NCBI GenBank assembly: GCA_913055805.1
Contig: CAJXLF010000001.1
Location: 272,761-336,760 of the forward strand
DNA: 64,000 nucleotides
From: an uncultured Salinisphaerales bacterium
GTDB lineage: Bacteria > Pseudomonadota > Gammaproteobacteria > Nevskiales > CAJXLF01
Reading direction: 5' to 3'
Positions 565-59,645 of the stretch are shown in pieces. The notes below the pieces were generated by a model. It had not been told where the DNA came from. It saw only the letters and a list, made by a program, of their open reading frames with translations, and did no database searches. The position numbers and the translations under genes were made by a program. The number at the start of each line of letters is the position of its first letter. Position 1 is the stretch's first letter.

Positions 565-1929
565 TCATGCGGCGTTGGCGCGCTCCAGCAGTGCGTCAAA
601 TTCTGACTGTATATAGGCGCCCAGTTTTTCCGGATCCGGCAGCATGCGGGCGTCGGCAGCTATACCTATGTGGGCATTGCCGGCATAGCGCATGGCTGAT
701 ATCGAAAGGCCGATACCGTGATAGATGATGTTCATGGGATAAGCGGCCAGTATGCGGTAGCCGGCCACACTGACCTGTCGCACCGGCCCGGGCATATAGG
801 TGGTGATGGCGCTGGCGGTGGCCAGGATGCGTCCGGAATTCATCAGCCGCAGGCCGGCCCGGGCGGCCAGATCCACCAGGCGCACAGAAGCGTTCAGCCA
901 CAGAATTTTCGCCCGTTCCCATTTCGGCGGCAGTTGCCGCTTCAGGGCGCGGGCACAGCGCTGTTTCATCGCTTCCAGCCGTTTGACCGGATCGTCTATG
1001 CGCGTACCCAGGGTGACACGCGTGATGTTGGCCTGATTGGCGGCAGTTTCCTGGGATTCGCTGAACATGGTGGAGATGGGCATGTTCGCGTGCATGGAGC
1101 GTTCCGGGAGCTCGCCTTTTTCCAGCAGGTAGCGGCGCAACGCGCCGGAATATATCGACATCAGGACTTCATTCTCCGAAGAGCCATATCGGCGGTTGAT
1201 TCGCCGGATATCCTTGAGTGAAATGTCCAGCGTAGCGTAGCTGCGCCGGCCAGATATGGGGCCGGTAAAACGCGAGGCCTGGGGCGCGCGTTTGCCGCTT
1301 GGCTTGCCCCGGTAGAGTTGCAGGAACAGCCAGACCAGGCTGATGGCAACAAGGTTATAGAGCAGGCGTATGGGATGTTGCAGCAATCCCTTCAGGCTGA
1401 GCCAGAGACCCTCGGCCACGCCGGGCGTGGGACGTGGCGGCCAGATGGGTTCGACTGAGCCGGTTTCCTCCACTGTGCGGGCAAACATCTTGACGGCGTT
1501 GAGGCCGTCGGCGCAGGCGTGATGAAGTTTCAGAATCAGCGCATGTTGGCCGTTTTCCAGTCCGTCGATGAGATGGAACTCCCACAGGGGTTCAGTGCGA
1601 TCCATGGGCCGGGGGAACAACTTTTCCGCCAATGCGTGCAGCTGCCGGGTGTTGCCCGGTGACTCAAGTACATGGTGGGTGATGTGTTTTTCCACGTCCA
1701 TCCGGCCGTCATTCAGCCAGTAGGGATAGTCGTGAATTAAATGGCTATACCACAGTCGCTGATGATGACGTTCATTACGCAGGGCGCCGATCTTCAGCTG
1801 GGTCAGCAACTCGCGGATGCTGTCTTCGGAACTGGGGCCTTCCAGCATGATCAGCAGCCCCATGTTCAACGGGCATTCGGGGGTTTCCAGTCCGAGGAAC
1901 TGTGCATCGAAGGCGGTTAACTGCTGCAT
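565..1929 (-). CDS. Wax ester synthase / acyl-CoA:diacylglycerol acyltransferase (WS/DGAT)
   Basis: A 454-residue member of the WS/DGAT family, which joins acyl-CoA to a fatty alcohol or diacylglycerol to make storage wax esters or triacylglycerol at the inner membrane. The catalytic HHxxxDG motif is HHACADG at residues 136-142, preceded by the usual PLWEFHLIDGL block (114-124). The N-terminal segment around LETPECPLNMG is also typical. The start ATG overlaps the end of the upstream paralogue by 13 bases and has no clear Shine-Dalgarno, so translation is probably coupled. Which acceptor it prefers cannot be read from sequence. Confidence 0.93.
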   Translation of the reverse strand: MQQLTAFDAQFLGLETPECPLNMGLLIMLEGPSSEDSIRELLTQLKIGALRNERHHQRLWYSHLIHDYPYWLNDGRMDVEKHITHHVLESPGNTRQLHALAEKLFPRPMDRTEPLWEFHLIDGLENGQHALILKLHHACADGLNAVKMFARTVEETGSVEPIWPPRPTPGVAEGLWLSLKGLLQHPIRLLYNLVAISLVWLFLQLYRGKPSGKRAPQASRFTGPISGRRSYATLDISLKDIRRINRRYGSSENEVLMSIYSGALRRYLLEKGELPERSMHANMPISTMFSESQETAANQANITRVTLGTRIDDPVKRLEAMKQRCARALKRQLPPKWERAKILWLNASVRLVDLAARAGLRLMNSGRILATASAITTYMPGPVRQVSVAGYRILAAYPMNIIYHGIGLSISAMRYAGNAHIGIAADARMLPDPEKLGAYIQSEFDALLERANAA

Positions 1930-3347
1930 GGCCCGGGTTTTTTTTTGGAAAGCTGGTATAGCTCAGTCAGTGCTTCCTGCATGAGGTCGGCGAAATGATC
2001 GGGGTCCGGTAACTGTTTCTGGTCAGCGATGATGCCGAAATGCAGGTCGCTGCGGTATCGCACTGCCGAGATGAACAGACCGCCGCCATGGTGATTCACA
2101 CTGACAGGGTGCATGCCTACGACCTCGCGTCCGCTGATATGCGCGGTTCTGCCAGGCCCGGGAATGAGGGTGGAAATAATATTCGCATTGGGGCGAACCA
2201 TGTTCCTGGACAGCATCTTCATGTACATGCTTGCCAGCGATCGGATGGTGGTCGGCGGCAATAGCGTCATGCGTTCCAGCAGGCGCCGGTTCCACTTTTC
2301 CCGCGCCCTGTTGGCTGAGCGGTGCAGGCGGGACTTTATGGTGGCCAGGCGTTTGACCGGGTCTTCAACCGTGGTCGCCAGTGAACTTCGGTAGAAAGTC
2401 AGCTGGTTGGCAGAGCCGGGGCGTTTTTCATCACCGATAATGGCCATGGGCAGGCCGGTATACAACGAACGATCAGGCAATTCGTCGTGTTCAAGCAGAT
2501 ACTGGCGAAGCGCACCGGAGATGACAGCCAGAAAAACCTCGTTGCGTGAACAGTCCTGGGCCGCACAAATGTCGCGAATCCTGTCCAGAGGCAGCTGACC
2601 GTGCGTATAGCTGCGTGACGCGCAGAGCATGCCGTTGAAGCGTGTGACGGGTGCTGTATAGGGGTTGGTCAGCCGGCGTTGCAGGTAGAACTTGTTCAGA
2701 AAAAACAGATGCTGGGCAAGTTTGCCCAGAAAGGAAAACAGGAGGCGTTTGGCCAGATTCAGTTGTACCGGCTTGGCTGCCAGTGTTTCGGAACCGGCAT
2801 CGCTGCCTGCTTCTTCAAGCTGTCTGACACGGGCGCTGTTGATGCCGGCCAGACTCAGCACCATCTGGATGCCGGTCACGCCATCCGCCAGAGCGTGATG
2901 GACCTTGCCGATGACAGCTGTTTCTCCGTCCTGCAATCCGCGGATCAGATGAACTTCCCATAGCGGTTTGCTGCGGCTCAGGGGCAGTTGCACAAGGTCG
3001 GCCACAAATTGATTGAATTCACGGCTGTCGGAAGCGGCATTCAGGTGATGGATCTGTAAATGCCTGTCGGGGTCGAAGTCATCATCATGAATCCAGGCGG
3101 GAAAGTTGAAACTGAGCGTCGCCGGCCGGATTTTCTTCTGCAAGCGCCGCATGAGAACGGAGTCCTCATTGATGATGTCGCGAATACGTTGTTCCAGCGC
3201 CGCCTCGTCGCCGCGCGCCAGAATCAGCAGCAGCGCCACGTTCATGGAGCATTCGGGAGTCTCGATATCCAGGAAGAGTGAATCGGCGCCGCTCAGTACC
3301 TGGGGTGCCTCTCCCGGTTTCAGGGAATGTTCGGAATTAGATTGCAA
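1917..3347 (-). CDS. Wax ester synthase / diacylglycerol acyltransferase (WS/DGAT), second copy
   Basis: A 476-residue paralogue of the downstream acyltransferase. Its active-site motif is HHALADG at residues 150-156, and PLWEVHLIRGL precedes it. The two proteins share the family N-terminal pattern (LDIETPECSMN here). The frame is closed by a TAA upstream and the only start codon ahead of the conserved block is TTG at 3347, so a TTG start is inferred; its Shine-Dalgarno is weak. The pair forms a two-gene leftward operon. Tandem WS/DGAT copies with different acceptor or chain-length preference are common in oil-storing marine bacteria. Confidence 0.92.
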   Translation of the reverse strand: MQSNSEHSLKPGEAPQVLSGADSLFLDIETPECSMNVALLLILARGDEAALEQRIRDIINEDSVLMRRLQKKIRPATLSFNFPAWIHDDDFDPDRHLQIHHLNAASDSREFNQFVADLVQLPLSRSKPLWEVHLIRGLQDGETAVIGKVHHALADGVTGIQMVLSLAGINSARVRQLEEAGSDAGSETLAAKPVQLNLAKRLLFSFLGKLAQHLFFLNKFYLQRRLTNPYTAPVTRFNGMLCASRSYTHGQLPLDRIRDICAAQDCSRNEVFLAVISGALRQYLLEHDELPDRSLYTGLPMAIIGDEKRPGSANQLTFYRSSLATTVEDPVKRLATIKSRLHRSANRAREKWNRRLLERMTLLPPTTIRSLASMYMKMLSRNMVRPNANIISTLIPGPGRTAHISGREVVGMHPVSVNHHGGGLFISAVRYRSDLHFGIIADQKQLPDPDHFADLMQEALTELYQLSKKKPGPCSS

Positions 3348-53438: not shown

Positions 53439-54191
53439 TTAAGCTTCAGGTCGAATTCCTTCAGCTAGCGTCTGAGCCCACAGTTCATAACCTTTGGACG
53501 AGGGGTGGAACCCGTCTACGCAGAAGTACCCGGCGCCCGGCAATGGCGTGAGTTTGATGTGTTCCAGGCTGCGCATTTCACTGGCCAGTTGATCAGCGGC
53601 AAGTTCGAGGGCGTCGGCGCGCAGGCCAAGGATACTGCGGGTGGGTTCGGGCAGGGCCGGGAAGTGGCGGAAGGGCGGGATGCCGCTGAAGATGATGCGT
53701 GGTTGGTGCAGCCGTGTTTCCAGGTATTCAACGATAGCTTTGAGCTCTTTCTGCCAACGGGTGGGTGAGGTCATGTTGACGGTGTCGTTGAAGCCGTGAA
53801 CCAGGACTACGATATCAGCCGAACCTCCCGGTACCCTCGGGCACAGCAGCTTCCGGGTCTGGGCAGCAGTGAAGCCATTCTGGCCGATGACCCGCCAGTG
53901 AACCGCGGCGCCTGTCTTTTGGCGCAGTGCACGGGCCAGATGTCCGGCCAGTGCCTGATCATTCGAGACCGCGCCCACGCCCGAAGCCGTGGATTCCCCG
54001 AGTAGCAGTAACCGTATGGCGGGCTTGTTGCCCTCAACGTGACCCGCAGTATCCGCAGCTTCGTCCAGTCTGAGCACGGACCTGCCCAGCCGCCAGGCCT
54101 GCCAAAGTACAAGAGGCAGGCACAGTGCTGTGAGCAGATTGGCTCTGGATACCAGCGAACGGATTTGTCGCTGACTTTCTGTCGTTGTCAC
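53439..54191 (-). CDS. SGNH/GDSL-family hydrolase
   Basis: A 250-residue SGNH hydrolase with an N-terminal membrane anchor (about 16-33). Block I is LLLGESTASG (Ser67), block II Gly in IGQNGFTAAQ, block III Asn in VLVHGFNDTVN, and block V DGFHPSS with the catalytic Asp and His. Such enzymes cut O-acyl or thioesters in the periplasm. The start is GTG, 7 bases after the barrel gene stop, so it is probably the last gene of the transporter operon, where an ester lipid would be a natural substrate. Confidence 0.87.
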   Translation of the reverse strand: MTTTESQRQIRSLVSRANLLTALCLPLVLWQAWRLGRSVLRLDEAADTAGHVEGNKPAIRLLLLGESTASGVGAVSNDQALAGHLARALRQKTGAAVHWRVIGQNGFTAAQTRKLLCPRVPGGSADIVVLVHGFNDTVNMTSPTRWQKELKAIVEYLETRLHQPRIIFSGIPPFRHFPALPEPTRSILGLRADALELAADQLASEMRSLEHIKLTPLPGAGYFCVDGFHPSSKGYELWAQTLAEGIRPEA

Positions 54192-54198
54192 GCAGAAC

Positions 54199-55641
54199 CT
54201 AGAAGTATCGTGTCAGCTCCATGCGAAGATGGCTGTCTTCGCTCACGCTGTACAACGGGTCAGTGACGGGAATATCACTGAAGGTCCGTAGTTCGACAGA
54301 CAACTTCCAGTTGCTTCCAAGACGCCGGCTGGCCTCGATGGTGCCCAGGATGGCGTCGGATTCAAGGTCAACAATCACCCCGGCCAGCATCTCGGTACTC
54401 TGTACGTCGTTGAAGGCCCAGCGTGTGCCAATAAAGGCATCGTCCTGGAAAGGTGAATAGGTGGTCGGTTCAAGCCCGGCCAGGGCTTCGGCCTCGGCCA
54501 CAGTAAACGATTCACCCGCAGCGAATTTGGTGATGGCCAGGCCCTGGGGTGAGTTCGGATCCAGCGAGCCACGGTCGTCGTAGAGATATTCTGCCACCAG
54601 GCTGAAGTCCAGGGCGGTATCGAAAATGGCGCCCCAGGTGTATTCAAAGCCGGCCGCCAGCGCCGTGTAACTCTGCGGCTCGCTGCTGACGTGTATGCCT
54701 TCCAGTTTCAGAAACCAGCCTTCGGCGAGGTACTGCAGTTCCAGACCTGTCTGCTCTATCTGGTCATAGGCAGGTACCAGATGCGGATTGACCGGGCGTA
54801 CCGTGACGAAGTCTTCACAGTTGGGGGCCAGGATCGGCACCAGGCCGTTCAGCAGCGGCCCCACCAGCGGTACGGTGGAAAGAATACAGTTGGGTGGCGG
54901 GTTGCCTTCGATGGCGATGTCGTCAAAGCCGAACAGCAGGCGGGGCTCGCGGCCGGTGCCGCGGAAATAGGACAGGCCAACGTCCCATGCGCCGAAGCTG
55001 TTGGCATAGCGTATGGCGCCATCGATGTGTTTCTCTTCGTCATCGTCTTCGTAAATCGGATGGTCGAAGTCAATCGGCAGAAAGGGGCGCATGCGTCCAT
55101 CGGGGCCGGCGAACGTGCGTTCGCGGAAATAGGGCAGCACGAAGAAATCAATGGTGCCGAAGTCTGTGATCCAGGCCAGGTTGACCATCGGCTGGCCAAG
55201 TTTGTCTTCGCCGTCCAGATTCTCGACAGCGTCGGTCTGGTTGATGATGTCGACCAGATGCACCGATTCGGTTTTGCCCCAGAAGACCTTGCGCACACCT
55301 ACGCGCCATTCGAAGTCGCGGCTGATGTAATGGTAGAAGAGTTCCCGTACGTCAGCATGGCTGCGTTCGTCATCCATTTCGTCGTAACGCAGGAAACCGG
55401 CAAAGGTAAAACTCTGATTGCGGTCTTCCGATTCCAGATAGTATTCGGGCTCGAATGAAACAGAGAGGGCCGTCTGATCCGGGTCCTGAGCAGTAGACAA
55501 AGGCTTGTCGAAAAAGTAGCGGCCTTCCAGAGTGGCCGACAAATCGAACTCACCTTCAGCGGCCTGGACGGTCTGCAGGCATCCAAGCAAAGTCGTACAC
55601 AGCAAGGCTGCTGTTGTGCCCCTCGTTTTCACACCCATCAT
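54199..55641 (-). CDS. Outer-membrane beta-barrel protein, DUF1302-like
   Basis: A 480-residue protein with a signal peptide (about residues 1-28, QTVQAAEG), many amphipathic strands with aromatic ends, and a C-terminal RMELTRYF whose final Phe is a Bam signal. SFTFAGFLRYDEMDDERSHA and WRVGVRKVFWGKTES resemble DUF1302 and alginate-export barrels. It probably forms the outer-membrane part of the MMPL and LolA-like system encoded just upstream. The distance from the LolA-like gene is 68 bases and includes a hairpin. Its final codons are seven bases ahead of the SGNH gene. Confidence 0.75.
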   Translation of the reverse strand: MMGVKTRGTTAALLCTTLLGCLQTVQAAEGEFDLSATLEGRYFFDKPLSTAQDPDQTALSVSFEPEYYLESEDRNQSFTFAGFLRYDEMDDERSHADVRELFYHYISRDFEWRVGVRKVFWGKTESVHLVDIINQTDAVENLDGEDKLGQPMVNLAWITDFGTIDFFVLPYFRERTFAGPDGRMRPFLPIDFDHPIYEDDDEEKHIDGAIRYANSFGAWDVGLSYFRGTGREPRLLFGFDDIAIEGNPPPNCILSTVPLVGPLLNGLVPILAPNCEDFVTVRPVNPHLVPAYDQIEQTGLELQYLAEGWFLKLEGIHVSSEPQSYTALAAGFEYTWGAIFDTALDFSLVAEYLYDDRGSLDPNSPQGLAITKFAAGESFTVAEAEALAGLEPTTYSPFQDDAFIGTRWAFNDVQSTEMLAGVIVDLESDAILGTIEASRRLGSNWKLSVELRTFSDIPVTDPLYSVSEDSHLRMELTRYF

Positions 55642-55674
55642 TCTGATGACTCTTTATTGTGACGTTAAGCGGTG

Positions 55675-55696
55675 ATCGGCCCCGTTCGGGGCCGAT
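55675..55696 (-). other. Intercistronic hairpin without a T tract
   Basis: ATCGGCCCC pairs with GGGGCCGAT across GTTC, in the gap between the LolA-like and barrel genes. No run of T follows on the coding strand, so it looks more like an mRNA processing or stability element than a terminator. Confidence 0.5.
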
Positions 55697-55709
55697 TCCA
55701 GGACAAGTA

Positions 55710-56522
55710 TTACCGGGCGGATTTCAGACTGTTCTGGTCGAAATCACGGTCGGTAAAGCCATTGTCGAATTTGTAGTTGCTGAAAATCAACGTGGTGCTC
55801 TTGCCGGTCTGGTGGTTCACCATATCCAGCTGGTCCGGGCGCCAGTGCTTGCCCTTGTATTGCTGGAAGCCGCTGGCCGTCAGGGTTTTCAGCAGCTCGC
55901 CCTTGCGGTCATAAAAGTCCACTTTCATGACGCGGTAGTGTTCCTTGTCGACCCAGGCGATCTGTTTGGTATATCCGGACTTCTCGTCTACTGGCACACG
56001 TTCGCCGACATTGCACTGGTAACCATCGCCGCAGGCTTCTTCACGCAGCCATTTGTAGTCCTTGTACTTCTCGATCTCCTGCGAGGACAGGTCCTCGTAG
56101 GCAAACTCCGAACCCATGAAGGGGCCGGATTTGTTATTCGAGGCAATGCGCTTCACGCGCTTCAAGGCAGGCAGATAAAGCCACTGGTCATCGGGTTCGA
56201 CTTTATGGCTATAGGTCAGTAGTGCGGTGCCTTCGACGTCCTTGGGTTCGTCGAAAATAATCATGCTCCAGTCACCATCTTCGGGTTTTTCGAGTGAGCG
56301 GCTGCGCAGCTCACGCGTACTTTCCTGGCCCTGTTTGTTACGCAGGATCATTTTCATGTCCACCCGGGAATCGCCCCAGCCGGCATCATAGGCATCTGCC
56401 TCGTTGGCCAGACGCAGGCCTTTTTCCTCGGGCGTCTCCGCAAAGGCGGAAACACTGACTGCACTCAGGCATAGCGCGAGTAGCGCCGTCGTTTTCAGGT
56501 TAAGCGGTTGCAACTTCCGCAT
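55710..56522 (-). CDS. Outer-membrane lipoprotein-sorting (LolA-like) protein
   Basis: A 270-residue periplasmic protein of the LolA-fold family with a signal peptide (about residues 1-28, VSAFAE). MKMILRNKQGQESTRELRSR, DDQWLYLPALKRVKRIA and GSEFAYEDLSSQEIEKY are its conserved blocks. These proteins carry lipid through the periplasm in MMPL-linked systems such as aryl polyene clusters. Its 5' end overlaps the MMPL gene by 23 bases, and GAGGACGACAATC precedes the ATG at 56522; the longer frame from 56651 lies inside the transporter. It is followed by a hairpin and the barrel gene. Confidence 0.88.
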   Translation of the reverse strand: MRKLQPLNLKTTALLALCLSAVSVSAFAETPEEKGLRLANEADAYDAGWGDSRVDMKMILRNKQGQESTRELRSRSLEKPEDGDWSMIIFDEPKDVEGTALLTYSHKVEPDDQWLYLPALKRVKRIASNNKSGPFMGSEFAYEDLSSQEIEKYKDYKWLREEACGDGYQCNVGERVPVDEKSGYTKQIAWVDKEHYRVMKVDFYDRKGELLKTLTASGFQQYKGKHWRPDQLDMVNHQTGKSTTLIFSNYKFDNGFTDRDFDQNSLKSAR

Positions 56523-58863
56523 GATTGTCGTCCTCTTCAGTTTGCATGTTGGCAGCGTATTGCCTGCGATCCAGGCGCAGCAATAACGCAGGAAGTAAAA
56601 GGAAGTCTGCCACCAGCGCGGCAGCGATCGCCAGTGCCGTGAGCTGGGCATTGCCGCTGTTAGGCAGGAAAGAAGATGTGCTGAGCAGCAGGAAGCCGGC
56701 CACGAGCACCAGGGTGGTCACGGTGATGGCCGAACCCACCGTGCGCAGGGAATAGCGTACGGCCTCTTCCACGGTATGACCCTGTTCACGGCGCCCGCGC
56801 AGGTATTTGCTCAGGAAGTGAATAGTGTCGTCCACCACGATGCCGAGCGTCATGCCCATGACCATGGCCATGGTGAAATTGATTTCGCCGTCGATCATGC
56901 CCCAGATGCCGAATGCAATACCGATCGGCAGCAGGTTGGGGACCAGGCTGAGCATGCCGATCTTGAAGCTTCGCAGCGTGATAATCAGGATCAGGGAAAT
57001 GCCGATAATGGCAATGGGCATGCCGATGAACATGGACTTGATGTTGCGTTCGGAGATATAGGAGAACATCACCGGCACACCTACGGCATAGGTATCCAGT
57101 TCCGGCGCATTCTCCCGCAGCCAGAGTTCACCCAGTTCGGCGAAACGGCGGGTTTCCTTCGAACTGATGTTCTCGAAAGTGATCTGGAAACGGGTGCCGG
57201 ATTTGTCGATGTTGACCTGGTTGGTCAGGTCCAGCCCATAAGGCAGTGAGAGCTCATATAACAGCAGATACTGTGCTGCCAGATCACGGTCTTCGGGAAT
57301 CCGGTACCACTCTGGATCATCTCCGTGCATGTTTTTGTTGAGGCGTTTCATGATGGTGGTGAAGTTGTTCACATGCACCACTTCCGGGAAGCTCCGCCAC
57401 CAGGCTTCGAATTCTTCCAGGGTTTGCAGGTACTCGGGGTCGGCAACCTTGCCGCTCTCGCCCGTGTCCAGGTTGAAGCTGAAGCTATACAGGCCGGTCA
57501 TGTTCTTGACCACGTAATCATTGTCGGTTCGGAAGCGGATGTCCTCTGCAAAGAACTCCGTGAATCGGTCGTTGGCCTCGTTGAGCGGGATCGCGGCGAG
57601 GAAAACAGCTGATATCGCCAGCGAACTCCACAGCACCGCGCCCTTGCGGCGAATAACGAAGTCGGCGATTTTTACCATGCTGCCGGCCAGGCGGCTTTTG
57701 GCTACCGGCGCATGGACCGGAATGATGGCAACCAGAGCGGGCAGCAGAGTGACGGAATAAACGAATGCCGCCGCGATACCGATGGCAGTGATATTGCCCA
57801 GGTCCTGCAGCGGCGGGGCGTCGGAGAAGTTCAGGGTCAGGAAGCCGATCACCGTGGTGACGCTGGTCAGGAATACCGGCACGAAATTCAGGCGCATGGA
57901 TTCCACCAGCGCCTGGTGCCGCGACATACCCTCGCGCATCAGGAAGAACATACTCACCAGAATGTGAATACTGTCAGCGATCGCCAGGGTCATGATGATG
58001 GTGGGCGCAGTGGCGGCCGGCGGTGACATGCCGATGCCGATAAAGCCGGTCAGACCCAGGGCGGTTGCGGCGGAGGCGCCGATAATCACCAGGGTTGCGA
58101 ATGTGGCTCCGATAGAACGCAACAGCAGCCACATGGTGATGGTCATCAACAGGTAGACCAGCGGGATGAGTGCGGCAATGTCATCCTTGGAAGCCTCGGA
58201 GAAGGCGTTGTTGAGCATCACCGAACCGGTGAGATAGATGTTCACCTCGGGATATTCCGCCAGCACTTCGTCGCGCAGGGCGCGTGCGGCTTCCACGACT
58301 TCCGGAGTTTCGTTGATGCTGGTGCCGGGCAGGTTGAAGGTGACCGACACGCCCACCATGCGCGCGTCGTCGGATACCAGGCGCTTGGCGATCAGCGGCT
58401 CATTGAGCGCAATACGCTTCGCCTTGTCGAAGTCTGCCGGCGGCAGTTCCATGGCGTTTTCGACCAGTGGTGCCACCACAAGATCGTCGCCGCTGGCTTC
58501 GGTGTGCTGGTAATTGGTGACCGAATCCACGCGCGTGGCGTAAGGCATTTTCCAGCCCGCCTCAGTCAGTTTTTCAATGGCTGCCAGAACGCGCGGGTTG
58601 AAGGCATCGCCGTCTTTTGCCTCCACCGCGAAGAAGGCATTGTCGATCTTGGTGTAGATTTTCTCGATGGCATCAAAGGCCTGCAGCTGCGGATTTTCCG
58701 GTCCGAAGAAAATGCGATAGCTGGTGGAGAAAGTGATCAGCCGCGCGCCGCTTGCCAGGGCTACGGTGGCCAGCAGAGTGCCGAACAGCACCAGCCAGCG
58801 CCAGCGAACCAGCCATTGGGCGTAACTGACGATCAAACGTTCAAAGCGTGATTGGCCGGGCAT
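56500..58863 (-). CDS. RND/MMPL family transporter
   Basis: A 787-residue inner-membrane exporter with the MMPL plan: helix 1 (about 22-42), a large periplasmic loop, six helices with the sterol-sensing-like region (YLLMTITMWLLLRSIGATFA), a second loop and six more helices, with GMTLGIVVDDTIHFLSKYLR near the end carrying the proton-relay Asp pair. Relatives such as HpnN move hopanoids or other lipids. It is the first structural gene of the TetR-MMPL-LolA-barrel-SGNH cluster, 71 bases from the regulator. Confidence 0.93.
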   Translation of the reverse strand: MPGQSRFERLIVSYAQWLVRWRWLVLFGTLLATVALASGARLITFSTSYRIFFGPENPQLQAFDAIEKIYTKIDNAFFAVEAKDGDAFNPRVLAAIEKLTEAGWKMPYATRVDSVTNYQHTEASGDDLVVAPLVENAMELPPADFDKAKRIALNEPLIAKRLVSDDARMVGVSVTFNLPGTSINETPEVVEAARALRDEVLAEYPEVNIYLTGSVMLNNAFSEASKDDIAALIPLVYLLMTITMWLLLRSIGATFATLVIIGASAATALGLTGFIGIGMSPPAATAPTIIMTLAIADSIHILVSMFFLMREGMSRHQALVESMRLNFVPVFLTSVTTVIGFLTLNFSDAPPLQDLGNITAIGIAAAFVYSVTLLPALVAIIPVHAPVAKSRLAGSMVKIADFVIRRKGAVLWSSLAISAVFLAAIPLNEANDRFTEFFAEDIRFRTDNDYVVKNMTGLYSFSFNLDTGESGKVADPEYLQTLEEFEAWWRSFPEVVHVNNFTTIMKRLNKNMHGDDPEWYRIPEDRDLAAQYLLLYELSLPYGLDLTNQVNIDKSGTRFQITFENISSKETRRFAELGELWLRENAPELDTYAVGVPVMFSYISERNIKSMFIGMPIAIIGISLILIITLRSFKIGMLSLVPNLLPIGIAFGIWGMIDGEINFTMAMVMGMTLGIVVDDTIHFLSKYLRGRREQGHTVEEAVRYSLRTVGSAITVTTLVLVAGFLLLSTSSFLPNSGNAQLTALAIAAALVADFLLLPALLLRLDRRQYAANMQTEEDDNHAEVATA

Positions 58864-58934
58864 GAAAGTCTCCTGAGTTATTCTGGCTGATCGAATCTGG
58901 GGCTGGAGTTGACTACAGGGTCAAGCAAGCAGGA

Positions 58935-59549
58935 TTAGTGGGTTCGTTTCGCGGGTCGCAGGCTTTCGAGAAACTGCGCCAGGCCGGTCATGCCCTTGTA
59001 GAGGATGGCATGGTCTTGCGAGGCCTTGGCCATGCCCATGCAGCCTTCGATGCTGCCCACTATAAAGGCAGCGCAGCCTTCGGGATCGGCATCCGCGCGC
59101 ACCGAGCCGTTCTCCTGTCCGCGACGCATGGCCATGGCGATGCCGTCGCGCCAGGAGCAGACGATACTGTTCAGACGCTCCTGGAATCCGGCATCAATAC
59201 CGGACATTTCCTGACAGAGGTTATTAAGCGGGCAACCCAGGCTGATCATTTCGTCGGTCGTTTCTTCCAGCCGGTTCTTCAGTACGTTCAGTGCCGCGTC
59301 AATCGGATTTTCCGCTTCGATGATGGGTTTCCAGCGCTGTTCTACCCAGGGTTTGAGGACTTCGTCGACCACCGCATAGCCCAGTTCGGTCTTGTTCCGG
59401 AAATGGTGGTACAGCGCGCCCTTGGTGACGTTGGTGTCCTTGAGAATGGACTCCAGGCTGGCGGAGCGGAAACCGAAACGGTGCATTTCCTCGAAAGCAG
59501 CTTCAATCAGTCGCTGACGGGTCAGGTCCGGTTGGCGTTTTACTGGCAT
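58935..59549 (-). CDS. TetR-family transcriptional regulator
   Basis: A 204-residue repressor. The helix-turn-helix at about 27-50 contains SLESILKDTNVTKGALYHHF. The ligand domain has several Cys (LGCPLNNLCQEM, SIVCSW) typical of the NemR and YcdC group, some of which sense reactive compounds. It is upstream of and in line with the MMPL gene. A palindrome lies just ahead of its start, suggesting autorepression and control of the export operon, and perhaps of the divergent TauE gene. Confidence 0.9.
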   Translation of the reverse strand: MPVKRQPDLTRQRLIEAAFEEMHRFGFRSASLESILKDTNVTKGALYHHFRNKTELGYAVVDEVLKPWVEQRWKPIIEAENPIDAALNVLKNRLEETTDEMISLGCPLNNLCQEMSGIDAGFQERLNSIVCSWRDGIAMAMRRGQENGSVRADADPEGCAAFIVGSIEGCMGMAKASQDHAILYKGMTGLAQFLESLRPAKRTH

Positions 59550-59569
59550 AGCGGTGTTTTCCGGGGACT

Positions 59570-59587
59570 ACATACCAATTAGTATGT
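59570..59587. promoter_or_regulatory. Palindromic operator for the adjacent TetR regulator
   Basis: ACATAC and GTATGT are perfect inverted arms around CAATTA, in the gap between the TetR gene and the divergent TauE gene. The arms and spacing are usual for TetR-family sites of this group. Confidence 0.7.
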
Positions 59588-59645
59588 ATCGTCTCCGGGT
59601 ATTGTCAAGGCAAGACTTTTTTGCGGTCGCCGGTACAATTCGCTG

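Follow-up and report, generated by a model that had tools for sequence, protein, structure and literature searches.

A TetR-controlled MMPL pump, LolA-like carrier and porin-like barrel as a candidate trans-envelope export route in a Salinisphaerales genome

Five closely packed genes on the minus strand of an uncultured Salinisphaerales bacterium raise the question of whether they form one route for the export of lipids through the cell envelope and, if so, which of them belong to it. They occupy positions 53439-59587 of a 64,000-nucleotide (nt) stretch of contig CAJXLF010000001.1, referred to below in its whole length as the window. An initial annotation had described a repressor with its palindrome, a 12-helix MMPL transporter, an overlapping LolA-like carrier, an outer-membrane barrel and an anchored SGNH esterase, and all five genes and the palindrome were found where they had been placed. 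We hold with moderate confidence that the TetR, MMPL, LolA_like and barrel genes encode one route, under repressor control and driven by protons, by which a lipophilic or amphiphilic molecule would be exported across the envelope. This reading draws on sequence, structural models and conservation, i.e., on gene linkage, the operator, the pump family and its charged residues in transmembrane helix (TM) 10, the LolA_like family and the barrel, from which we infer the function. The features of the locus are as follows (aa, amino acids).

59581..59608, minus strand: sigma-70-like promoter, TTGACA (59608-59603), 16-nt spacer, CATACT (59586-59581); from a promoter scan
59570..59587, no strand assigned: presumed TetR operator, imperfect 18-bp palindrome ACATACTAATTGGTATGT over the -10 hexamer; single match in the window
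58935..59549, minus strand: TetR-family repressor (TetR_C_13 type, ScbR/AcuR-like), 204 aa; Pfam TetR_N and TetR_C_13
56500..58863, minus strand: MMPL/RND pump, COG1033/HAE3-like, 787 aa; PF03176, 128 bits, cut-off 20.5
55710..56522, minus strand: LolA_like periplasmic carrier, 270 aa, signal peptide-like N-terminus; PF17131, 215.7 bits, cut-off 30
55642..55709, minus strand: gap between the LolA_like and barrel genes with a GC-rich 9-bp hairpin lacking a T run; folding energy against shuffles
54199..55641, minus strand: predicted porin-like beta-barrel of the outer membrane, 480 aa, with about 18 strands and Phe at the C-terminus; AlphaFold model and homologues
53439..54191, minus strand: SGNH/GDSL hydrolase, GTG start; Lipase_GDSL_2, 66 bits, cut-off 32.9

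Gene order and its conservation

Transcription would run from the promoter and palindrome through TetR, MMPL, LolA_like and barrel to SGNH, with 71 nt between TetR and MMPL, 68 nt between LolA_like and barrel and 7 nt between barrel and SGNH. The LolA_like gene does overlap the pump gene, its ATG at 56522 lying 23 nt inside the MMPL stop, while the listed start at 56651 is merely an upstream in-frame start. The hairpin in the LolA-barrel gap (minimum free energy -20.3 kcal/mol, z -1.9) was equalled by 8 of 200 shuffles, which is weak evidence, and may have a role in expression ratios.

Conservation was followed in three samples: named genomes, where a pattern scan returned at least 592 stretches, at least 548 of them confirmed (the best 80 of these are the named loci below); 85 genomes of the order, from which 24 barrel loci were taken with flanks and their genes placed by tblastn; and 370 genomes drawn evenly from the class and searched with a barrel profile, 27 strong matches being taken with flanks. 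The barrel is present in 24 of the 85 order genomes, and its profile matched in 143 of the 370 class genomes, 20 of these 143 matches being weak (E 1e-3 to 1e-20). Sixty named loci have at least 4.2 kb upstream; LolA was found in 53 of them, and MMPL, LolA and barrel lie on one strand in 50. The same trio occurs in 19 of the 27 class loci and in half of those from the order (12/24), bearing out the linkage of barrel and transporter on which the earlier proposal depended. Counted over all 80 named loci, the layouts are MMPL-LolA-barrel (38), TetR-MMPL-LolA-barrel (15, weak TetR matches counted), barrel only (14), LolA-barrel (11) and others (2). Among the 12 order trios, 6 also carry a window-like TetR and 4 have LolA before the pump (LolA-MMPL-barrel), and the order further contains TetR-LolA-barrel (2) and MMPL-barrel (3) arrangements. 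Judged from these gene orders, the conserved unit is TetR-MMPL-LolA_like-barrel, without SGNH.

Apart from a second TetR type, no additional gene family holds a fixed place in the relatives' loci, and recurring neighbours were therefore dropped as a clue to the cargo; many of the "recurrent" clusters obtained by neighbour clustering were antisense frames of the unit's own genes. According to record titles, the unit is also present in sulfur-oxidising symbionts and methylotrophs. Close copies were seen in metagenome-assembled genomes labelled Acidobacteriota, Phycisphaerae, Poribacteria and Opitutales (L100, L107, L129, L151 and others), reflecting either gene transfer or misbinned contigs. On a 24-kb Pseudoalteromonas plasmid (L030, NZ_CP118497.1) the trio adjoins GmtX/GmtY mobile-element genes, and the barrel is divergent from MMPL-LolA.

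Of the five genes, the four linked ones are thus conserved together, and SGNH is not. A query made of the window protein and 19 aligned homologue segments found no SGNH relative at the unit in any of the 80 named loci, 38 order, own-genome and plasmid loci or 27 class loci. Homologues do occur in 17 of the 84 other order genomes, away from the unit: the pieces fetched there (1.5 kb on each side) contained no pump, carrier, barrel or TetR match, and in one genome (G045) the SGNH homologue and the barrel share a contig at a distance of about 19 kb. The esterase could be a trimmer of the cargo by its position, on the same strand directly behind the barrel gene with no terminator-like site between, and by its intact blocks G65-E-S67, G133-x-N-D and D226-x-x-H229, which we take to be the catalytic GES, GxND and DxxH blocks; given its constant lack at the relatives' loci examined, a five-part unit is nevertheless quite improbable, and SGNH was rejected as fifth component. 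The gene is probably a recent local addition, a passenger of this locus. Its description as anchored is plausible from a hydrophobic stretch at about residues 12-33, which however falls below the 19-residue threshold for a TM segment.

Repressor, operator and promoter

The annotated repressor with its palindrome was confirmed by the TetR_N and TetR_C_13 domains and by a presumed operator that lies over the -10 hexamer and recurs in relatives. The TetR_N domain together with a palindrome near the gene's own promoter supports membership in the family, with binding as a prediction. With up to 3 mismatches allowed, ACATACTAATTGGTATGT has a single match in the window, against a chance expectation of 0.03. 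The promoter scan returned 2 promoter-like matches versus 2.6 in shuffles, and TTGACA-16-CATACT is thus not significant alone; the layout TTGACA-16/18-CATACT across the operator was, however, seen again in most relatives. All window-like TetR genes but one (L099; 16 of 17) have the core CATACYNNNYGGTATG in front of them, in most cases with TTGACA 16-18 nt further ahead. Among the 8 TetR genes of the class sample with at least 40% identity, 7 likewise follow the core (L271 lacks it), although these operator counts are not independent, some contigs being common to the class and other samples (e.g., L285/L119). The reversed operator pattern had no match in 9 genomes that hold 20 forward matches. 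Moreover, the window TetR is 50-55% identical to 8 homologues in the order, each upstream of this unit. The recurrence of the operator core amounts to a strong phylogenetic footprint of an autoregulated repressor, and from it we infer that TetR binds the palindrome.

In 21 loci the place of TetR is taken by the second type, which did not group with the window type at the cut-off used. Where the flanks left room to judge (44 loci), the window type was found in 6 and the second type in 20.

In the genome of origin the exact 16-bp operator core occurs at 3 places. Allowing 2 mismatches gave 26 matches versus 11 for the reversed control, so that no individual extra operator site can be claimed, and the regulon was dropped as a clue to the cargo. 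This 16-bp core, CATACTATGCGGTATG, stands at L219 (G000:C10:30893) and L220 (G000:C1:194464) of the genome ahead of two genes, one for a DUF1302 protein and the other for a protein interpreted as a LuxR-type regulator. An operator-like site with 1 mismatch (L227:5177-5213; G000:C1:387176) is located 18 nt ahead of the ATG in a gene for an MMPL paralogue (45% identical), itself downstream of a DUF3336/patatin gene; as a sequence match, it is a possible second TetR target.

Pump, carrier and barrel, and their possible cargo

The 12 helices first ascribed to the MMPL transporter agree with the arrangement of helices in the pump model (43 sequences, predicted local distance difference test, pLDDT, 88). 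Its nearest folds are MmpL4, MmpL5, MmpL3, HpnN (16-17% identity) and NPC1-type proteins. All 43 sequences share residues D678, D679 and H682 of TM10 and H300 of TM4; at position 297, 27 of them have D and 14 have N. The best NCBIfam match is TIGR00921 (HAE3) at 145.9 bits, for a cut-off of 351.9, and the curated HpnN models gave 54.6 bits (cut-off 1100) and 93.6 bits (cut-off 751.85).

The LolA-like nature of the carrier was upheld by PF17131, which at 215.7 bits is far better than DUF1329, which also matched above its cut-off over part of the profile (51.2 bits, cut-off 23.1), and the carrier profile matched 3bk5 (E 5e-123), 9tp6, 4z48 and 3buu in the PDB. The barrel belongs to no Pfam or NCBIfam family, and its sequence has no PDB match up to E 1. 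Its assignment to the outer membrane agrees with the AlphaFold model (78 sequences, mean pLDDT 90.5, predicted template-modelling score 0.86), which consists of a signal helix and then about 18 strands, counted from the DSSP line, ending in Phe. Foldseek placed AlgE at the top, and VIA-align gave OccK2, of the OccK/OprD porins, Z 23.6 (301 aligned, 3.3 Å) and AlgE Z 22.9 (298 aligned, 3.4 Å); at Z of about 23 the identity to OprD/Occ and AlgE is 7-12%. As a DUF1302 protein the barrel was rejected, hhalign against the DUF1302 protein of the window giving 0.3% probability, a weak test with a single sequence on one side.

In the mechanism that these parts suggest, TetR would block the promoter until an inducer is bound, the pump, driven by proton flow, would lift the cargo out of the inner membrane, the soluble LolA-like protein would ferry it through the periplasm in its hydrophobic cavity, and the barrel would release it outside or into the outer leaflet. 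No membrane-fusion or TolC-type partner, such as an HAE1 tripartite efflux pump has, was found in the cassette or at a fixed place in relatives, an unlinked TolC not having been searched for; with no recurring fusion protein, hand-over by a shuttle appears likelier than a closed conduit.

Several observations weigh against a single export route. The unit is not always complete: among the 60 named loci, 7 barrels have no adjacent LolA and MMPL, and MMPL alone is missing from its place in 3 others; 4 of the 27 class loci hold the barrel only and another 4 LolA-barrel; 7 of the 24 order loci have the barrel alone, one of them (L083) being cut upstream by the contig end; and 18 of the 44 loci eligible for TetR carry neither type. 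VIA-align Z values of AcrB-type pumps tie with those of lipid transporters, and the method thus failed as a separator of the two. The barrel, being as near to OprD/Occ uptake porins as to the exporter AlgE, has a fold that does not fix the direction of transport. Finally, the linkage to a polyketide synthase (PKS) described below concerns one distant relative.

If export is accepted, the cargo would be either a lipid made by the cell or a toxic hydrophobe, the likelihood being split between the two. AmeABCD of Castellaniella defragrans is reported to be an inducible efflux system for apolar monoterpenes (PMC6394551), and toxic hydrophobes are therefore as open as an envelope lipid. An inducible detoxification pump of this kind, acting on toxic hydrophobes such as solvents, terpenes or fatty acids that are met or made in catabolism, with the toxic compound as inducer, is possible but somewhat doubtful: besides the AmeABCD precedent, the operator on the promoter suggests expression on demand and related parts abound in the genome (DUF1302 barrels, DUF1329/LolA_like genes, an Ame-like set on contig C5), whereas no catabolic genes recur beside the unit and the unit occurs also in the sulfur-oxidising symbionts and methylotrophs noted above. 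Neither of these groups is known to degrade hydrocarbons. A system dedicated to an endogenous product, be it a lipid, a glycolipid or a polyketide, which would be exported to the outer membrane in the manner of ApeL-ApeM-ApeN or mycobacterial MmpL7-LppX, can likewise be proposed only tentatively. On a Sulfitobacter plasmid, a relative (MMPL 36%, LolA 42% and barrel 27% identical to the window) follows a reducing PKS (KS-AT-DH-ER-KR-ACP) and two condensation-domain proteins in the order MMPL, LolA, GalE, barrel, which favours a self-made lipid there; the MMPL-LolA-barrel set of a Halioglobus plasmid has genes for a P450 and an AMP-binding enzyme nearby. The aryl polyene pairing of LolA-like ApeL with RND-type ApeM and the use of MmpL7 with LppX make a lipid cargo plausible by analogy. 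Set against this, the scanned flanks in the window contain no biosynthetic genes, none are fixed in relatives, and the Sulfitobacter barrel is merely 27% identical.

An inward route, in which the barrel would admit a hydrophobic nutrient, the LolA-like protein carry it inward and the pump exchange or clear it, would suit the OprD/Occ uptake porins at the top of the VIA-align matches and the fact that Nevskiales include hydrocarbon users. It is nonetheless quite improbable, as characterised RND/MMPL relatives work outward, and AlgE scores within one Z of the porins. The earlier proposal of a lipid export route survives in its repressor, pump, carrier and barrel, whose families and folds fit the export of a lipophile; a lipid is one of the possible cargoes, and SGNH falls away.

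Beyond this locus, one may speculate about a widespread, unnamed Gram-negative system for endogenous lipids, in which an MMPL pump would load them onto a shuttle of LolA fold and a porin-like barrel would serve as their dedicated exit, with no fusion-protein conduit involved, a diderm counterpart of mycobacterial MmpL-LppX with a cargo-sensing TetR switch. If the mechanism is true, it would show how lipophilic molecules can pass the Gram-negative periplasm without a conduit; its reach is indicated by barrel relatives in well over a third of the class genomes, usually beside pump and carrier, and the self-repressing TetR offers a handle for finding the cargo.

Related parts in the genome and comparison with known systems

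Parts for lipophile transport are unusually numerous in the genome of origin (3.4 Mb), which has about 20 strong DUF1302 barrel genes (contigs C8, C1, C5, C4, C10 and others), many DUF1329/LolA_like genes and 33 MMPL matches. At C5:56990-62499, DUF1302, MMPL and PSII_BNR matches are consecutive and resemble the AmeABCD cassette. MMPL-LolA_like-barrel sets with weakly DUF1302 barrels occur at C12:102984-107187 and C9:124365-128152, and by sequence appear to link the two barrel kinds. At 565-3347 of the window, about 50 kb from the cluster, are two adjacent genes that we presume to be of the wax ester synthase/diacylglycerol acyltransferase types.

Among known systems, the HAE-3 family includes hopanoid exporters (PMC8277102). 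HpnN shares the HAE3-type fold with the window pump, which at 16-17% identity falls far under the HpnN model cut-offs; according to the AmeABCD paper, HpnN is without a tie to periplasmic or outer-membrane partners (PMC6394551). Aryl polyene clusters encode the LolA-like ApeL with the RND pump ApeM and ApeN (PMC8253772), and resemble the window unit in combining a LolA-like protein and an RND pump, which there serve a lipid destined for the outer membrane. They differ by a LolB-like DUF3261 protein in place of the barrel and by lying in a biosynthesis cluster, whereas no ketosynthase or acyl carrier protein genes of this type were found around the window unit, where the scanned flanks hold DUF1302, TPR, TauE and unknown genes and other neighbours were judged from open reading frame lists only. 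The lipoprotein LppX has a LolA-like fold. Mycobacterial export of phthiocerol dimycocerosate by MmpL7 and LppX (PMC11539658) similarly joins an MMPL pump to a lipid-carrier lipoprotein, but in another envelope type, with DrrABC required and no porin-like barrel in the unit.

A search of open-access papers on MMPL, LolA-like/PF17131, RND and DUF1302 proteins brought up none that dealt with this particular unit. AmeABCD comprises the DUF1302 protein AmeA, the LolA-superfamily DUF1329 protein AmeB (451 aa), AmeC and a 787-aa HAE3 pump, and ame deletion lowered tolerance to apolar monoterpenes and raised Nile Red accumulation (PMC6394551). Like the window unit, which is probably inducible too, it places a 787-aa COG1033/HAE3-like pump, a LolA-superfamily periplasmic protein and an outer-membrane protein in one cassette. 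Its carrier and barrel are different, the window carrier being a 270-aa PF17131 protein and the window barrel being without a Pfam family; AmeC (COG4447) has no counterpart between the parts of the window unit, PSII_BNR matches being confined to contigs C5 and C12 of the genome, and a TetR gene stands in front of the window unit. With the DUF1302 and AmeC features missing, the window unit was not filed as an AmeABCD member. AmeABCD is nonetheless the closest studied system found, built on the same plan with a different barrel and carrier.

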